Origin: a virus
Virus record (IMG/VR): IMGVR_UViG_3300030019_000034
Location: 1-62,743 of that record
Length of the DNA: 62,743 nucleotides
Reading direction: 5' to 3' (one strand)
Below are positions 6,276-51,845 of this stretch, piece after piece. The translations under genes and the position numbers were made by a program. Below the pieces are notes generated by a model. That model saw only the letters and a list, made by a program, of their open reading frames with translations, searched no databases and had not been told where the DNA came from. Every line of letters begins with the position of its first letter. Within the stretch, counting starts at the first letter, position 1.

Positions 6276-7970
6276 TTAACCAATAAACGTATATTTGAAA
6301 CCAGTTGTTATTAAATTTGCCGCTAATTTAGCCAACCAAAATGAAGAACTTATATCGTCATGATCTGAAACACTTTGTAACCCATGTTCTGTAAATGCTA
6401 CTGAACCTAAATCACTAAAAATCAAATCTTTGGCATTTTGAGAATATGCATCTCCAACAGGTATATGTATTTTGCCCCTTTCCATATCTATGGCCAACCC
6501 TGGCCAACCTGTTTTAAGATCATATTTATCTATTCCCGTAGTATGCCCGACTACCGGCAACCCCTGCTTATCTGATTCTTGAACAAATATTTGTTGAAAA
6601 GTATTTTGTTCCATCACAATAGTATTAGGTCTGAATCTAGCATTTAGCCCCTTTAAAATTTGCATTTGTTCATGAAATGTTTTGCCCTTATCTCGGTACA
6701 TATTTAATAACCATCTCTCTCCCGTATCTCCATCAACTCCCCAAGTTGTAAATACAGTATAATCTGCTCCAACATTCGCTGAAATAGCGAAGTCACATCC
6801 CATTACTACCTTATCGAATTTTATTGGAAAATCGTCTCTATTCCTAACTAACGTATAATTTTCCATTCTTAATAAAGAACGCTCAAGAATATTTAATGGA
6901 AATATAGAAGATTCATTTGTAATAGGTCTACATAAATTTTCTCTTGAAAATATTATATTTCCTTGACTTTGTTTTTTATCCATAAGGTCAGAAAAACTCC
7001 AACGTTGTGGCCATAAAATTCTTCCATCTGGAAATATTGCTGGGTATTCTATTACAAACCAACCTTTTTCGTCTTTTGTTGCCTTACTTTTTAAATCGCC
7101 GTATAAATCAGCCGCATGGAATGGAGTTCCTACTACAATTATTTGACCTCCCGGAACAAGCATATTCATAATAACAGAATGAAAATAATCAGTGCTCTTC
7201 TGACGTTGTAAAGAGCTATATATTACGTTATCTTTCAATCCGTCATCAACTACTATCCAATACGGGTGAGCACCACGTACGGATGACCCAAAACCCTTAC
7301 AGGTTAATCTCGCTCCGTTCTTACAAGATATATTAGTACTTGCCCACGCTCCATCATTTCTTGAGTTCGGATAGAGCCTATCTTTCAATATGTCATTCCC
7401 TTCGATAGTCCCCTTAAGAATTTCCATTAAATCTACAGACTGTTGCAAAGAATAACTAAATAAATATCCACGATTAGAATTTGACTTTGAAGGTCTTGCT
7501 GAAAATCTTCCGCTTTTAGGCTTAGAATATTTGTATAATTGCCAAGCGGGATAAGCATTGGAAAAATAAAAAGACTTTCCGTGATCTCTAGCTGCATTTA
7601 TACATAACTTTCTATGCCTATGAACAAGGTCTCCCCACTCTAAATGATGCCAAGATAACTGAAAATCAGGCATAACCGACGTTATAAAATAAGTCAAATT
7701 TCTTGACCTTAAAACCTCTTCTATAGAAAGTGAAAGTCTTTCTTCATATTTAGGAGAAAAATCAATATTGGGGTCTCCTGTGAACATTACTTGATAGGCG
7801 TCTTTCATTAAATTATCAATCACCCAATCAATATCTCCCTGAGAACCTTGCATTAATTCTAAAACGCCCTTATCATCCATTCCGTCGATTATTTCATCAA
7901 CGACGTCAAGGCATTCTAACCTATGCATAGGAGATTGAAGAAGAGTGACATTTGAACCTATATCTAACAT
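6276..7970 (-). CDS. Terminase large subunit (ATPase and nuclease)
   Basis: Motor that cuts concatemeric DNA and pumps it into proheads. The 564-aa protein has a Walker A-type loop NAARDHGKSF near 125-134, a Walker B-like YWIVVDDGLKD near 238-247 and a coupling motif GTPFHAAD near 281. The RNase H-fold nuclease domain begins with VVMGCDFAIS near 388-397 and has further Asp residues (GADYTVFTTW). It resembles T4 gp17 in length and order. No confident small subunit is adjacent; the next gene upstream (8058-8804) is a weak candidate. Confidence 0.9.
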   Translation of the reverse strand: MLDIGSNVTLLQSPMHRLECLDVVDEIIDGMDDKGVLELMQGSQGDIDWVIDNLMKDAYQVMFTGDPNIDFSPKYEERLSLSIEEVLRSRNLTYFITSVMPDFQLSWHHLEWGDLVHRHRKLCINAARDHGKSFYFSNAYPAWQLYKYSKPKSGRFSARPSKSNSNRGYLFSYSLQQSVDLMEILKGTIEGNDILKDRLYPNSRNDGAWASTNISCKNGARLTCKGFGSSVRGAHPYWIVVDDGLKDNVIYSSLQRQKSTDYFHSVIMNMLVPGGQIIVVGTPFHAADLYGDLKSKATKDEKGWFVIEYPAIFPDGRILWPQRWSFSDLMDKKQSQGNIIFSRENLCRPITNESSIFPLNILERSLLRMENYTLVRNRDDFPIKFDKVVMGCDFAISANVGADYTVFTTWGVDGDTGERWLLNMYRDKGKTFHEQMQILKGLNARFRPNTIVMEQNTFQQIFVQESDKQGLPVVGHTTGIDKYDLKTGWPGLAIDMERGKIHIPVGDAYSQNAKDLIFSDLGSVAFTEHGLQSVSDHDDISSSFWLAKLAANLITTGFKYTFIG

Positions 7971-8000
7971 AATTACGATTATTCTTTTTATACAACAAAA

Positions 8001-8033
8001 GCTAACGAGAGAAATATTATAAATCTCGTTAGC
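8001..8033 (-). terminator. Terminator hairpin between 8058-8804 and the terminase gene
   Basis: Perfect 10-bp inverted repeat GCTAACGAGA/TCTCGTTAGC followed on the minus strand by TTTTGTTG. It lies between two genes of the same strand, so it may be a partial terminator. Confidence 0.65.
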
Positions 8034-8057
8034 TCTATTATTTATACTTGAAAATAC

Positions 8058-8804
8058 TTACTTACCGTACTTAATTCTCTTATGTATAAGAATCTCTAAA
8101 TTTATACGAGCTTCGGATTGTTCTTTATAGGTTAAAGTGTTGTCCGAAGCTATCGACGAATTATATCTAAGAATGTCATTATTCAATACATCGCAAATGG
8201 ACATAATTTCCTTTTCGATAGATTTATGGCAACTCTTCTTATCGAAATTTAATTTGAACTCATAATTCCCCTTAGTAAATTCTACCAATCCAAATGCTCT
8301 CAATAATTCTAGTATCTTACTAGCATTACTGTGAGTAAGATTTGTTTTCTTTACCACTTCTACTCTCGTGAAAATTCGGTCTTCGGATGATTCGATAGCT
8401 CCGTTAACCGTTAGAATATTCCAAAGTTTCTGACACTGTTGTTCAGCGTGAATACGATTTGAAGTATCATCTAAAAATTCGCCTATACTTTTTGCTTTAG
8501 GCTCTTTAGTCTTAAGATAATCAAATATGATTCTATCTTCAAGAACTACCACTTCAACTCCATTTCGTTTCGAAGAATCTAAAACATCTTTTGAAACTCT
8601 AGGATTCAAACACGACAATAAAATAACAGACTGTTCGGGAGAAAGTTGTTGTTTAACTTCAGGTTGTACTTCCTTTTTACTTAAAAATGAAGATTTTTCA
8701 ACCTCTTTAATCTTTTCTTTTTCCATCTTAGCAGCTTCAATTTCAGCTTTTGTTCTCCTTTTTCTTTTCTTAGGAGTTTCTTGGTTATTCAATTCATTTG
8801 GCAT
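8058..8804 (-). CDS. Putative winged-helix DNA-binding protein
   Basis: 248 aa. A strongly basic N-terminus (PKKRKRRTKAEIEAAKMEK) leads into a middle domain of unknown fold. A winged-helix-like segment near 145-185 follows (FTRVEVVKKTNLTHSNASKI, then a hydrophobic wing). It could be a transcription regulator, or a small terminase subunit given that the large subunit comes next. A hairpin separates the two genes. No firm family was recognised. Confidence 0.6.
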   Translation of the reverse strand: MPNELNNQETPKKRKRRTKAEIEAAKMEKEKIKEVEKSSFLSKKEVQPEVKQQLSPEQSVILLSCLNPRVSKDVLDSSKRNGVEVVVLEDRIIFDYLKTKEPKAKSIGEFLDDTSNRIHAEQQCQKLWNILTVNGAIESSEDRIFTRVEVVKKTNLTHSNASKILELLRAFGLVEFTKGNYEFKLNFDKKSCHKSIEKEIMSICDVLNNDILRYNSSIASDNTLTYKEQSEARINLEILIHKRIKYGK

Positions 8805-16213: not shown

Positions 16214-16756
16214 TTATTCGTTTACAACTAATTTAGATAAAGTAAAAGCCCCTCTTCCGCAAATAAATAATACTCTTATACCTTCTTTGTTCCACCAAAG
16301 ACTTGTTTCTACAGAAGTATTGACTTGAATGAACCCCTGTTCTATTAAATCTTTTATCTCGGCGCGAGAACGTGAAATACTTTCAGTTTTTATATTTAAT
16401 TTTTTCAATACATTTTCAGCAACAACATATTGCTCTTTATCCTTTGAAACTTGATATTCGTGAGCAAAGTCAGAAGCGTCTTTACAAAATGTTGAAAAAT
16501 TAAAACTTCCATTAAAAGATATGTTTTCTTTGTATTCCTCTAATGGGTCACTTATTAAAAGAAGTTTAGAAGGAAGATGACCAGGATTAACGATTTCTGT
16601 TATAACAACTTTTAATCCAATTTCTTCAAAAACATTTTTTACCAATCCCATTTCTTCAAAAACTTCCTTAGCATCGCAATCTTTTCCTCTCCAATATGGG
16701 ATAGGAATAACGATTGAATGGTTACAATACTTTTTTCTTAATTCTTCTTGATTCAT
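16214..16756 (-). CDS. Hypothetical protein
   Basis: 180 aa, not recognised. The N-terminus is basic. The second half has a helix-turn-helix-like stretch (SRSRAEIKDLIEQGFIQVN) and a final hydrophobic part with a Cys (VLFICGRGAF). Overlaps the lytic transglycosylase stop by 4 bases. Confidence 0.6.
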   Translation of the reverse strand: MNQEELRKKYCNHSIVIPIPYWRGKDCDAKEVFEEMGLVKNVFEEIGLKVVITEIVNPGHLPSKLLLISDPLEEYKENISFNGSFNFSTFCKDASDFAHEYQVSKDKEQYVVAENVLKKLNIKTESISRSRAEIKDLIEQGFIQVNTSVETSLWWNKEGIRVLFICGRGAFTLSKLVVNE

Positions 16757-17205
16757 GATAATATTTTTAATTGGTTCATTTTTTGAATTACTTTGTTTTT
16801 ATAACTTTGGGAAGCTCTGGGATTGTGTAGTTTTATAGCTTTATTTATATCCTTTTTAGGATTATAATGTTCTTGAATTATTTCAAACATTTCTAAACTC
16901 TTTTCAGGATTATTTCTGCAACTCATAGAATACTTATTTAAACCAATGATTCTATTAGCTTCTTTTACGTATATAGGAGTAATTTGTAATATTCCTACGT
17001 CGTTCTTAGTTCCTATCGCTCTAGGATTGCCTTCACTTTCTACTTGTATCAAAGCTTCAATAAATAAATTCCAATTATCTTTTGGTATTATTTTATTTGT
17101 CGTCGGTATGTATATTGTTAATAATTTTACATTTAAATCGCTATAGCTTTTTTCTCCAAAAGAACAAGCAAAAATTATAAACAATAGTAACGATATTCTT
17201 TTCAT
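16753..17205 (-). CDS. Exported SLT-type lytic transglycosylase
   Basis: 150 aa. A signal peptide (MKRISLLLFIIFACSFGEKS) is followed by an SLT/goose-lysozyme-like domain: ALIQVESEGNPRAIG with the probable catalytic Glu57, then DVGILQITPIYV and a C-terminal helical part with HNPRASQSYKNKV. It would cleave peptidoglycan glycan strands in the periplasm. The signal peptide means it may act as a secreted endolysin or during envelope remodelling. Upstream lies a 53-aa gene with a real Shine-Dalgarno. Confidence 0.8.
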   Translation of the reverse strand: MKRISLLLFIIFACSFGEKSYSDLNVKLLTIYIPTTNKIIPKDNWNLFIEALIQVESEGNPRAIGTKNDVGILQITPIYVKEANRIIGLNKYSMSCRNNPEKSLEMFEIIQEHYNPKKDINKAIKLHNPRASQSYKNKVIQKMNQLKILS

Positions 17206-17369: not shown

Positions 17370-17448
17370 TTTATTTTATCTCCTTTAAGCATATCATTAT
17401 TATTTTATATAGTTGTTTGGTATAAATAACTTTGTTAACAATAGGAAA

Positions 17449-17469
17449 GGGGCAACTTTCGCTTGCCCC
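17449..17469 (-). terminator. Hairpin at the 3' end of the tmRNA transcript
   Basis: GGGGCAA/TTGCCCC with loop GCGAAAG, followed by TTTCCTATTGTT on the minus strand, just after the tag stop. It may be the terminator or the closing hairpin of the coding piece. Confidence 0.65.
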
Positions 17470-17479
17470 AAATCTCGGT

Positions 17480-17530
17480 TTATGCTGCGGCTCTTAGCGG
17501 CTGCGTAAACATTTTAATCGAATTTTTGCC
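17480..17530 (-). other. tmRNA tag reading frame
   Basis: Within the coding piece a frame reads GKNSIKMFTQPLRAAA then TAA. Its small hydrophobic Ala-rich end fits a proteolysis tag, but it is longer and more basic than usual and lacks the common YALAA ending. A frame one base away contains VYAAAK, close to the usual end, so a past indel is possible. The resume codon is inferred. Confidence 0.5.
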
Positions 17531-17824
17531 ATTTAGTAGGCTCTGTAAATACTCCGCTAATCATACTCGTGCGTTGTCAAAACCATATATCCCCGTTTGA
17601 AGGTTTTTTAAAGAGAACCTACAAACTCTAAGGGTTGCCGATTATTCGACGCCACCACTCCTTTTTACGAAAGGAGAAACGGAAGGTACTTCGATATTTG
17701 CGGACTTAATTTATAAACTAACAATTAAACTTAGTCAGGCAATTCTTCTTTCCCTTGTGGAGATAGTGGGATTCGAACCCACGTCCAACGCATTTTACTA
17801 AAAGCATCTTCATACTTACGTTCT

Positions 17825-18406
17825 TTAATAACTTTGTAATTCTTTTCTTCGTTCATAGAATATTGAATCCCAATTTCGTATAACATCTAACTCTTTGAGG
17901 TAATCAGTTAAATTCATACCAACGGGTATTTCATCTTTATAGCATTCTTCTGGAACATCTACGTCTTCTATGTTTTGTATCTTTTTATCCCAAACTGATT
18001 TGTTTAAACCTATCCACTCTCTAGCATCTGGTCTGGTATCATATATATCAAAATATCTTTTCTTCTCTATAGGACTAGGATATATAAGAAGATAAGGTAA
18101 ATCCAAGTACTTAAAAACTTGTCTAGCCTGTACGGACATAGCCGTTAATACTATCTTATCTCTTTCGATTATTTTCGTAACGGTTTCTATATAATTTTCT
18201 GGGAAATTATCATTCTTTATGCCATTAGCTTTATCAGAATAAAAGTGTTCTGAAAACCAACCGTCCTCGAATCCAATACAATGCCCTTCTAAATAAGTCT
18301 TACCAATTCCAGGATAGTCGCATATGGCTTTTATTTTACCAGAAAGGAAGGCTTGTTTTATTTGTTGTCTATTTTTTATTAATTTCCATAATAAGAATAT
18401 TAGCAA
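17825..18406 (-). CDS. P-loop NTPase, phage nucleoside-kinase-like
   Basis: 193 aa. Walker A loop DYPGIGKTYLEG near 30-41, then FPENYIETV, LTAMSVQARQVFKYLDLPYLLIYPS and an arginine-bearing lid-like segment. It belongs to a widespread phage P-loop family resembling small-molecule kinases, with unknown substrate. A paralogue lies at 27792-28214. Its stop codon is immediately followed by the tmRNA. Confidence 0.7.
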   Translation of the reverse strand: MLIFLLWKLIKNRQQIKQAFLSGKIKAICDYPGIGKTYLEGHCIGFEDGWFSEHFYSDKANGIKNDNFPENYIETVTKIIERDKIVLTAMSVQARQVFKYLDLPYLLIYPSPIEKKRYFDIYDTRPDAREWIGLNKSVWDKKIQNIEDVDVPEECYKDEIPVGMNLTDYLKELDVIRNWDSIFYERRKELQSY

Positions 18407-22247: not shown

Positions 22248-22916
22248 TTACTTTTCTTCTCTATCTAAGAATTTATATCCAAATGGAAAATGCTTATCGT
22301 AATCCTTTCTCAATTGACTATTTGTATAGCCGATAGGAAAATAATGAGCTATCTTGTAATATCCAAGGCGATTGGTTTTTTCTAAGAAGCCTACTTTCTC
22401 TGACATATTACGAATACAATCAATCGTCGCCTTAGAATAATCTGTAAAACCCTTAGAACTTAATTCATTTATTATTCCTTGACGAGTTATGATAACTCCG
22501 ACTTCTTTAGAATTTACATAATCTCGGAAGGTTGACCAAATAGTTTTCGTTTTATCTTTAATTGTACCGCTTCCTCCTAATTCTTCTAATCTCCTAACTG
22601 CTTTTTTCAAAACGTCGATAACATTAGCGTTAATATAATCTCTGACGTTCTGTTGAGTTTGTGACTTTGTATCTCCTTTAATGTAACCGCTTTTTAGCAA
22701 TACTTCTCCGTCTACCTCTACATAAAGTCTTCTCAAAACTCCATCTTCGCAAACGCTCTGGTCAGAAGAAAAATTTTGTAGAAGACGAAATGTAACTTCT
22801 GCTTCGTTACTTGGCCAATATCTGGTATCGACGCTAATGATATCAAAATCCAAGTCCATCTTTCCTCCGCAGTCAGAAGAAAATGGTATATCCTTTGTAA
22901 CGTCTAATTTGTTCAT
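22248..22916 (-). CDS. Hypothetical protein, possible winged helix at C-terminus
   Basis: 222 aa. Residues near 120-205 have a helix-turn-helix-plus-wing pattern (VIITRQGIINELSSKG, ATIDCIRNMSEKVGFLEKT, NRLGYYKIA). N-terminal half unknown. Its start overlaps the upstream stop by 4 bases. Confidence 0.55.
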   Translation of the reverse strand: MNKLDVTKDIPFSSDCGGKMDLDFDIISVDTRYWPSNEAEVTFRLLQNFSSDQSVCEDGVLRRLYVEVDGEVLLKSGYIKGDTKSQTQQNVRDYINANVIDVLKKAVRRLEELGGSGTIKDKTKTIWSTFRDYVNSKEVGVIITRQGIINELSSKGFTDYSKATIDCIRNMSEKVGFLEKTNRLGYYKIAHYFPIGYTNSQLRKDYDKHFPFGYKFLDREEK

Positions 22917-23452
22917 ATCTTTTCTTTCTTAAGATTCTCACGTAAGTCTCTAACGTTCAAAGATAGTTCTTTCGATATCGCCATAGTTTTTTCAATTGAA
23001 TCGGAAGAGCCTACTAAAATAGTATAAGCTTCGGGAAACTCTTCTTTTATCCTTTTGTAAGTCTTAAGCCTACGAAGAACATTTTTAATTTGATTTCTCC
23101 GTTCATCTTGTTGATCGCATATATGATTGTATTCCTCTACATTTTCTTCAAGGATAGTCTTAAGAACAGGTTCATTGACAAGTTCTTCGGCTCTTTCAAA
23201 TATTGGAGTATTTGGATAAATATACCACCAACTTCCCAATAATTGAACTCCTATACAATCTTGTACTTTTAGTTTATCGCCATATTTAGAATGCCAAAAA
23301 TCAATTACTTCTTTCGGAAGATTTTCTACGCAAGCTTTGCCTACGATATTATTGACTTTCTCTTTAATCTCTTTTCTTTTATCGTCATAAGGTTTCAAAA
23401 GATTCAAACAAACCTTCTCAATTTTTACTTCTGAAATAACTTCTCTTCCCAT
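22913..23452 (-). CDS. Hypothetical protein
   Basis: 179 aa, mainly helical with charged coiled-coil stretches near both ends. A CAAAGTTTTAAAA motif lies about 35 bases upstream. It forms a coupled pair with 22248-22916. Not recognised. Confidence 0.6.
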   Translation of the reverse strand: MGREVISEVKIEKVCLNLLKPYDDKRKEIKEKVNNIVGKACVENLPKEVIDFWHSKYGDKLKVQDCIGVQLLGSWWYIYPNTPIFERAEELVNEPVLKTILEENVEEYNHICDQQDERRNQIKNVLRRLKTYKRIKEEFPEAYTILVGSSDSIEKTMAISKELSLNVRDLRENLKKEKI

Positions 23453-26785: not shown

Positions 26786-26971
26786 TTAATAACAACCGCA
26801 ATTGTTATTCATTTCTTTTAATAACGCTCTTATTTTGATTGTTTTCTTTTTGGGTAAAGTACTGACCTGATATTCTAAGGCGGCTATTAAGATTTTTGCC
26901 TCCTTTAAAGAAGCTATCATTATTAATTCTTTGGGTGTTCCTTTTTCTAATTGTTCGTCAAAATATCTCAT
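26786..26971 (-). CDS. Small helical protein
   Basis: 61 aa, helical (KELIMIASLKEAKILIAALE), ending with two Cys (NNCGCY). Not recognised. Confidence 0.5.
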   Translation of the reverse strand: MRYFDEQLEKGTPKELIMIASLKEAKILIAALEYQVSTLPKKKTIKIRALLKEMNNNCGCY

Positions 26972-26972
26972 A

Positions 26973-27425
26973 TCATTCCTCTCCTTCGTCTTTTACATTC
27001 CAATTAAAAGCTTTTATCTCTTTGATAAAGTTATTTGAATAATCTTGTATAGCGCATACAGATATTCTTCTTTCAAAGCCTAACTCCTCAGGTTTGATTA
27101 TATCCAATATGCAATCAGTTATTTCTTTCGGGGTGTCCTTACTTATCTTCCTTAGTCCTATCTCTTTATTTACCACGTCCTCCAATGTTTTAAATGGTAA
27201 GTAATGAGTTACTATATTCGTATATTGTAAAACCTTCCCCGTTTTTGTTATTAATACAGAAAACGCTCCGAAGTCTCCGTATTGTCCTTGCAATACCTTT
27301 CCGTCTTTAGTTCTAAACAAACAATGCTCCCCATCTTCTGGATGAGAAGTAAAAGGATTATATATTGTCCAATACTTTATTTCCTTTGTTGCTAAAGAAG
27401 ACTTAATAAGAATAGACTTTTTCAT
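26973..27425 (-). CDS. Hypothetical protein
   Basis: 150 aa. A middle beta region (GEHCLFRTKDGKVLQGQYG) suggests an SH3-like fold. Not recognised. Confidence 0.6.
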   Translation of the reverse strand: MKKSILIKSSLATKEIKYWTIYNPFTSHPEDGEHCLFRTKDGKVLQGQYGDFGAFSVLITKTGKVLQYTNIVTHYLPFKTLEDVVNKEIGLRKISKDTPKEITDCILDIIKPEELGFERRISVCAIQDYSNNFIKEIKAFNWNVKDEGEE

Positions 27426-27429
27426 AATA

Positions 27430-27795
27430 TTATTTCTTTACAATTTTGTAACCTAATTGATCTAACTCATCAAGAAGGACAGCTCCTAACTTCCAAACAG
27501 TTTTATAATAATCGCAAGACATTCTATAATTTAAAGCCGCTGAAGTAGCGACATCTATTTCTTCTAAGGTAAAACGATTCATTACTTCTTCCTTATGGAT
27601 ATTTTCAATGTCTGAGGCGGTTTGTTTATAGTACCAACCGTTTAACTCATATACGCGCTTCTTTGCAGCTTCGGGGCTTGTCTTTGTCTCGTGTATATTC
27701 TCATCTTGGATGACCCCAATATCTGAAGTTTTGCCTCTTCGAAAGATTGACCAACTCCCTCCGCTCTTTGTATAATAGTAATCTCCTTCTTTCAT
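27430..27795 (-). CDS. Hypothetical protein
   Basis: 121 aa. An N-terminal beta hairpin (GDYYYTKSGGSWSIFRRG) leads to a helical C-terminus. Overlaps the P-loop gene by 4 bases. Not recognised. Confidence 0.6.
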   Translation of the reverse strand: MKEGDYYYTKSGGSWSIFRRGKTSDIGVIQDENIHETKTSPEAAKKRVYELNGWYYKQTASDIENIHKEEVMNRFTLEEIDVATSAALNYRMSCDYYKTVWKLGAVLLDELDQLGYKIVKK

Positions 27796-51200: not shown

Positions 51201-51845
51201 CTATTCTTCATTATCTAAACTATAGCTTGAATATACTTTTCTTTGTTGTAATAATTCATTGCCATATTTTTTGATTAAAAAAGATTTTTGCATTTCTATT
51301 ATATCTGAAACCTCTAGTGGTTCATCACCGCTATCAATTACTTGTTTTCTTATTTTTTTATCCTTATTGTTAAAATAAACTTTGCTAAGAAGTTTTGCGC
51401 TGTGACCTCTTAAAAATAAACTGAATATGGCTCTTTCTTTTCCATCTAAACCTTCCAAAAGGTCTATCCCATTTACAAAAAATTTATTTTCTTCAGGAGA
51501 AATATTTGTATCATCTTCAACTCCAAAATCATAATTTATATCATCAATCCGAGTTTTATAATTTTCTCGGCTAATGTACTTCATAAAATCTCTAGTTTTA
51601 TTTGAGCAGGCGGCTTCTAAATAAAAACGAATTGGAACAGGTTTTGAAGCTTCATTTCTACGATATTTTCCCCATCGCCTTCCATAAGATTTTATAGAAG
51701 TAAATATTTTTATCCGAAACTCTTGAACCAAATCTTCAAATTCAAATGATAGTTCTTCATATGAAAATATTTTACTTGCGTATTTCTTAGCAAGATACTC
51801 ATATCTATTGTAGAGCAATTCTGACATTTTAGTATCTTTTACCAT
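51201..51845 (-). CDS. Sigma-70-like RNA polymerase factor (2), T4 gp55-like
   Basis: 214 aa. Region-2-like pattern LSFEFEDLVQEFRIKIFTSI then a helix rich in aromatics, followed by LLEGLDGKERAIFSLFLRGH, a region-4-like start. Size and layout fit phage late sigma factors such as gp55. It lies behind the third copy of the 50-bp-spaced promoter, so it may be part of the temporal cascade. Confidence 0.65.
   Translation of the reverse strand: MVKDTKMSELLYNRYEYLAKKYASKIFSYEELSFEFEDLVQEFRIKIFTSIKSYGRRWGKYRRNEASKPVPIRFYLEAACSNKTRDFMKYISRENYKTRIDDINYDFGVEDDTNISPEENKFFVNGIDLLEGLDGKERAIFSLFLRGHSAKLLSKVYFNNKDKKIRKQVIDSGDEPLEVSDIIEMQKSFLIKKYGNELLQQRKVYSSYSLDNEE

Follow-up and report, generated by a model that had tools for sequence, protein, structure and literature searches.

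Does a phage of the Bacteroidota, a phylum whose own tmRNA is made in one piece, carry a tmRNA gene in permuted form, and if so, from where did that form arise? This question is raised by a locus on the minus strand of the window (the whole stretch of 62,743 nt that was analysed), for which a sequence-only reading had proposed a two-piece tmRNA and an independent permutation. The evidence from gene models, pairing and gene relationships indicates that the locus is very probably a tmRNA gene in permuted (two-piece) form, carried by a tailed phage of a Bacteroidota host. Its origin is a separate matter, on which the evidence is divided.

The window locus and the pairing of its halves

ARAGORN called the locus (17389-17847, minus strand) as 'tmRNA*', i.e. 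permuted, with the tag GKNSIKMFTQPLRAAA*. The covariance model RF04321 (tmRNA_permuted), which merges the alpha, beta and cyano forms (PMC11915505), aligned to the window over its full length with 48.3 bits (E 1.8e-6). The proposed permuted gene order was recovered by both. The window copy exceeds the RF04321 cut-off of 47 by a narrow margin, which is a point against the two-piece reading. A conventional one-piece gene, named beforehand as the result that would speak against permutation, was rejected, as RF00023 gave only 24 bits (cut-off 47) and covered one end of the locus (17755-17838). The alpha, beta and cyano clade models (RF01849-RF01851) were not among the window matches above cut-off, where RF04321 stood alone.

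The layout is given in Table 1. All named pairing elements occur once each on the minus strand within 17380-17900, and every helix that had been proposed to join the halves was found there: the acceptor stem GGGGATA/TATCTCC (7 bp), of which the third pair is G-U (G3-U70, the alanine identity pair), the inner helix 2 AACGCA/TGCGTT (6 bp) and the outer helix 2 GTATTTAC/GTAAGTAT (8 bp, two of them G-U). The segment of 163 bases between the halves likewise matches the interval from A17758 to G17594. The T-arm is standard and the D region is unusual (TATGG). The acceptor end does not encode CCA, which would need to be added, and the tag has 16 residues with AAA at its C-terminus. Like RF04321 tmRNAs in general, the window gene combines the permuted order with acceptor and T-arm pairing across the spacer, G3-U70 and a tag frame; it differs in the unencoded CCA and in a D region of 12 nt instead of the 13 of the RF04321 and RF01850 consensus.

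Table 1. Features of the window tmRNA locus, in order of transcription, and RAGATH RNAs upstream of crAss-like phage tmRNAs
Feature	Position	Strand	Basis
Upstream ORF, 193 aa, phrog_4182, function unassigned	17825..18406	minus	
3' (acceptor) half, transcribed first	17759..17819	minus	RF04321, co-fold
Outer helix-2 strand of acceptor half, GTAAGTAT	17819-17812	minus	
Inner helix-2 strand of acceptor half, TGCGTT	17792-17787	minus	
GGAC, then T-arm GTGGG-TTCGAAT-CCCAC (after inner helix-2 strand)		minus	
3' acceptor strand, TATCTCC	17765-17759	minus	
Discriminator A17758, then CAA	17755..17758	minus	
Spacer between halves, 163 nt (discriminator A17758 to G17594), predicted to be removed	17595..17757	minus	
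5' (coding) half including tag frame	17480..17594	minus	ARAGORN, RF04321, co-fold
5' acceptor strand, GGGGATA	17594-17588	minus	
D region of coding half, 12 nt, TATGGTTTTGAC		minus	
Inner helix-2 strand of coding half, AACGCA	17575-17570	minus	
Outer helix-2 strand of coding half, GTATTTAC	17552-17545	minus	
Tag frame GKNSIKMFTQPLRAAA and stop TAA; resume codon GGC at 17530	17480..17530	minus	ARAGORN
Terminator-like hairpin GGGGCAA-GCGAAAG-TTGCCCC, then TTTCC	17449..17469	minus	1 found; shuffles 0.6
RAGATH RNAs	L257 1163-1264; L258 516-613; L259 500-600; L262 951-1052		
RAGATH RNAs	L260 856-1022		
RAGATH RNAs	L257 71-228; L261 125-303		

When the two halves were folded together, the minimum-energy structure contained the acceptor stem, the T-stem and helix 2 as predicted, and the interaction energy between the halves was -16.4 kcal/mol, compared with -5.8 +/- 3.1 for shuffled halves. 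The acceptor stem was absent from the minimum-energy fold of the uncut precursor, calculated with a fold model without pseudoknots. Two-piece tmRNAs typically keep PK1 and PK2 flanking the tag (PMC3985003).

The upstream ORF ends 5 nt ahead of the outer helix-2 strand, where space for a separate promoter is not obvious; the tmRNA precursor is therefore probably co-transcribed with this ORF. A scan for the Bacteroidota promoter motif (TTTG ... TAnnTTTG) revealed no site near the tmRNA gene. Two ORFs downstream of the tmRNA lies a gene for a transglycosylase SLT-domain protein (16753-17205), a candidate for lysis. Elsewhere in the window, 51201-51845 weakly matched a family of RNA polymerase sigma factors (phrog_1740, E 8e-5) and possibly encodes a phage transcription factor.

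The phage, its relatives and the TTTTGAC class

The window record is a linear IMG/VR virus fragment of a tailed phage, with the terminase large subunit at 6276-7970 and replication genes of its own. Its DNA polymerase is nearest to that of Chryseobacterium phage MA9V-3 (34.8% over 99%), followed by Tenacibaculum and Cellulophaga phages, and the best matches of its DnaB and UvrD are in Bacteroides and Chryseobacterium phages. Bacteroidota are expected to lack Shine-Dalgarno usage. A Shine-Dalgarno-like motif of at least 4 bases preceded only 4 of the 68-70 window genes, which is at or near background. These core proteins and the absent Shine-Dalgarno usage support the assignment to a phage of Bacteroidota type, as had been proposed. 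SmpB was not found in the window, in MA9V-3 or in two IMG/VR relatives by polymerase, G019 and G015. A blastn search of phage records with the window tmRNA gave no match, and a neighbour-gene search with the upstream ORF gave no relatives.

The cultured phage MA9V-3 itself contains a permuted tmRNA at 22857-23081 (RF04321, 64.7 bits; RF01850, 40.7, below its cut-off of 84). Its record (PV245944.1) annotates ssrA at 22766-23124 with the label 'transfer-messenger RNA SsrA' only, and the available passages of PMC13120357 do not mention permutation for this SsrA. It resembles the window gene in its order, its 12-nt D region, its G-initial tag and the related replication proteins of the phage; it differs in the tag itself and in a spacer of 60 nt (163 nt in the window). 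A ClpX-like ATPase encoded a few kb from this tmRNA (26938-27777), to which passages of PMC13120357 refer, could act on the phage tag. G019 and G015 both have a permuted tmRNA, and none above cut-off was found in 45 further IMG/VR relatives by polymerase, many of them short fragments. The presence of the gene among relatives is sporadic. Two other searches were set aside: the polymerase search of genome contigs returned distant bacterial sequences of about 30% identity that are not relatives of the window phage, and in IMG/VR the called matches of a 23-nt T-arm/acceptor pattern were one-piece tmRNAs and tRNAs only.

As to the hosts, RF00023 exceeded its cut-off in 60 of 61 Bacteroidota genomes, in agreement with the earlier statement that the tmRNA of this phylum is one-piece. 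RF04321 did so in a single one (G301, 63.1 bits) of 395 genomes drawn from the phylum; a second draw, of 396 genomes from the order of G301, yielded no other permuted tmRNA above cut-off (about 790 genome draws altogether). The gene in G301 lies in a prophage within a 1.6-Mb contig, where its neighbours encode a DNA polymerase, a helicase and an exonuclease of phage type, and the genome has a one-piece tmRNA as well (160 bits, tag GEDNYALAA). In this prophage (L249) genes for tRNA-Met and tRNA-Ile (7945-8602) stand directly ahead of the permuted tmRNA. Ten weaker RF04321 matches in Bacteroidota genomes (33-39 bits) proved to be ordinary one-piece tmRNAs.

A blastn search with the G301 prophage gene led to crAss-like phages. 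ARAGORN called 'tmRNA*' in cr60_1, cr50_1 and cr10_1; the RF04321 cut-off was passed by cr50_1 (60.3), cr53_1 and cr10_1 and failed by cr60_1 (40.3 bits). In cr56_1 (NC_055890.1, L258) and cr113_1 (NC_055896.1, L259) an HNH-like endonuclease ORF occupies the tmRNA spacer on the opposite strand (840-1501 in both) and overlaps the acceptor half, and cr109_1 (NC_055892.1, L262) seems to retain a short remnant of it at 1292-1502. The T-arm at these loci is unusual as well, GGGGC-TATCGTAT-GCCCC. RNAs of the RAGATH-20, RAGATH-22 and RAGATH-9 families lie upstream of crAss-like tmRNAs, at distances ranging from some hundreds of bases to about 1.4 kb. Flavobacterium phage Fpv1 contains a one-piece tmRNA (84381-84795; L055 1501-1915; 58.2 bits); therefore, Bacteroidota phages hold both gene forms.

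Permuted loci in IMG/VR were collected with patterns in which GGGG and CTCC were fixed and acceptor pairs 5-7 were left free, to avoid selection bias. All three free pairs formed in 98.4% of 126 unique loci, compared with 42% (maximum 52%) when halves were re-paired. By form, the permuted IMG/VR loci comprised 82 with a 13-nt D region, 59 with 12 nt and TTTCGAC and 57 with 12 nt and TTTTGAC, counts that do not stand for natural frequencies, the patterns favouring a 12-nt D region. The length of its D region and TTTTGAC place the window copy in the last class. Within this class the three free acceptor pairs all formed in 90% of loci versus 24% after re-pairing, and helix 2 (at least 5 of 6 pairs) in 94% versus 53%. 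The class rarely encodes CCA (5/57 versus 103/141 in the other permuted forms) and usually has TTT ahead of GGAC (47/57 versus 13/141). Many of its tags begin with G and most keep an Ala-rich C-terminus.

A comparison independent of the RNA itself was provided by Shine-Dalgarno motifs, which preceded 2.1% of 473 genes on contigs of the TTTTGAC class and 39% in both other classes. The portal protein of one class contig had 87 phage matches, almost all of them named as phages of Flavobacterium, Cellulophaga, Tenacibaculum or Maribacter; for two other class contigs tested the host signal was uninformative. The same high confidence that is given to the two-piece reading extends to the window gene being a member of a class of permuted tmRNAs that is widespread among Bacteroidota phages. 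It is not an isolated case: the same form occurs in MA9V-3, in crAss-like phages and in many IMG/VR contigs.

Two-piece tmRNAs of phages have in fact been reported before. A 2014 survey listed mycobacteriophages and Bacillus phage G only (PMC4131195), and 53 of 133 unique phage tmRNA structures were found to be two-piece, mostly from marine or aquatic sources (PMC9004378). Those of Melnitz and other marine phages are phage-borne and permuted like that of the window, and those included in the tree of that study belong to alphaproteobacterial, gammaproteobacterial or cyanobacterial types (PMC9004378). Unlike the Melnitz type, the window class is found with hosts that have a one-piece tmRNA and no Shine-Dalgarno usage. 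In the open-access literature no paper was found that describes permuted tmRNA for phages of Bacteroidota or for crAss-like phages, and database tables may already list some of the sequences. Apparently unreported is the large Bacteroidota-phage group, which includes crAss-like gut phages.

Origin of the permutation

The 5' signature of the window gene had been read as Bacteroidota-like. The TTTTGAC class as a whole does show Bacteroidota-like signatures in the tRNA domain; in the window copy the tRNA-like domain has diverged too far to be placed, and nearest-class tests on it were tied. One-piece tmRNAs of Bacteroidota hosts, for example that of G301, differ from the window gene in conventional gene order, a single RNA and a different tag; one subset of them resembles the phage class in having ACTGGTTTTGAC-AGC and TTT-GGAC in the tRNA-like domain. 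In 17 of 56 sampled Bacteroidota one-piece tmRNAs (those with GAC then A) the TTTTGAC and TTT-GGAC of the phage class tend to recur; TTT stood ahead of GGAC in 12/17 of one set. Over 40 positions of the tRNA domain, some of which also defined the class, 44 of the 57 class members were nearest to this one-piece subset.

Trees in which all permuted forms make up one clade are rejected, with p-AU 0.0076 on 58 columns and 0.0035 on 39 columns, the latter set lacking the acceptor, one strand of the T-stem and the window sequence with its long branch. So is a clade made up of the phage class by itself (p 0.037); one that joins the phage class to the Bacteroidota one-piece subset is not rejected (p 0.19). 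On these 39-58 columns a separate permutation is favoured and plausible, perhaps more than one. With so few sites the independent event that had been proposed is not proven, and convergence on host factors (SmpB, AlaRS and EF-Tu) could have given the same pattern.

Two histories have to be weighed against this background. According to one, tmRNA was permuted at least once more in Bacteroidota phages, from a one-piece tmRNA of Bacteroidota type, and the gene then spread through unrelated phages of the phylum (MA9V-3-like, crAss-like, elemo-like and temperate), the hosts retaining their one-piece tmRNA; we hold this tentatively, at slightly less than an even chance. The other, which we rate somewhat below even, is that the gene goes back by acquisition to a permuted tmRNA of proteobacteria or cyanobacteria, or to a phage carrying one, and was adapted to Bacteroidota hosts without any independent permutation. 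Such an acquisition fits the 21 positions of the 3' half that were not used in defining the class, over which the 57 members divide evenly, 23 being nearer to Bacteroidota one-piece tmRNAs and 24 to the other permuted ones, with the window copy leaning slightly towards the permuted side. It also fits the exchange of tmRNAs by phages across hosts, Melnitz having an alphaproteobacterial type (PMC9004378). Against it stand the 12-nt D region with TTTTGAC, the TTT ahead of GGAC, the scarcity of encoded CCA and the rejection by the trees of one clade of all permuted forms, but not of the class joined to the Bacteroidota one-piece tmRNAs. Acquisition concerns the origin only and is compatible with a working two-piece tmRNA.

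Proposed function and its meaning

The gene would be transcribed as a single precursor, probably by read-through from the upstream ORF. Host RNase P would cut before G17594, host 3' tRNA processing would trim after A17758 and the host CCA-adding enzyme would complete the end; the spacer would be discarded and the acceptor stem and helix 2 would hold the two RNAs together. The two-piece tmRNA could then be charged by host AlaRS via G3-U70 and brought to stalled ribosomes by host SmpB, so that stalled proteins would receive the phage's own tag and be degraded by a host protease. The likely benefit would be that ribosomes are kept free while phage and host mRNAs break during infection. For all steps after transcription (cleavage, CCA addition, charging and tagging) we infer the course by analogy; processing by RNase P and tRNase Z has been proposed in reviews, with the Caulobacter two-piece tmRNA as a model (PMC3985003).

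The gene could instead be a decoy that occupies host SmpB or AlaRS and so blocks trans-translation. A tmRNA-like RNA of phage DS6A that consists of the TLD only was reported to inhibit tmRNA (PMC4131195; PMC11915505), and the phage tag is unlike host tags such as GEDNYALAA. The DS6A RNA, however, has no tag, whereas a tag frame with its stop is kept in the window, in MA9V-3, in the crAss-like phages and in most class members, and most tags keep the Ala-rich C-terminus; a decoy is for these reasons considered unlikely. Less probable still, indeed very improbable, is that the gene is a passenger or a decaying copy without function. The low score and the TATGG D region of the window copy, the sporadic presence among relatives and the invasion of spacers by endonuclease genes in two crAss-like phages would agree with decay, but the acceptor and helix-2 pairing is perfect including G3-U70, T-arm and tag are intact, and the variation across the class is compensatory.

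Read as a working two-piece tmRNA, the gene bears on a classic rearrangement, one that is survived by an RNA working in two pieces and that until now has been linked to three main clades of bacteria. In a one-piece phylum, a large class confined to phages would offer a new origin for study. The class shows that Bacteroidota phages commonly supply a ribosome-rescue RNA of their own, with separate tags, for which the cultured pair of MA9V-3 and Chryseobacterium is a testable system. It also shows that genes to which crAss-like phage records give the plain label 'tmRNA' belong to the two-piece type.
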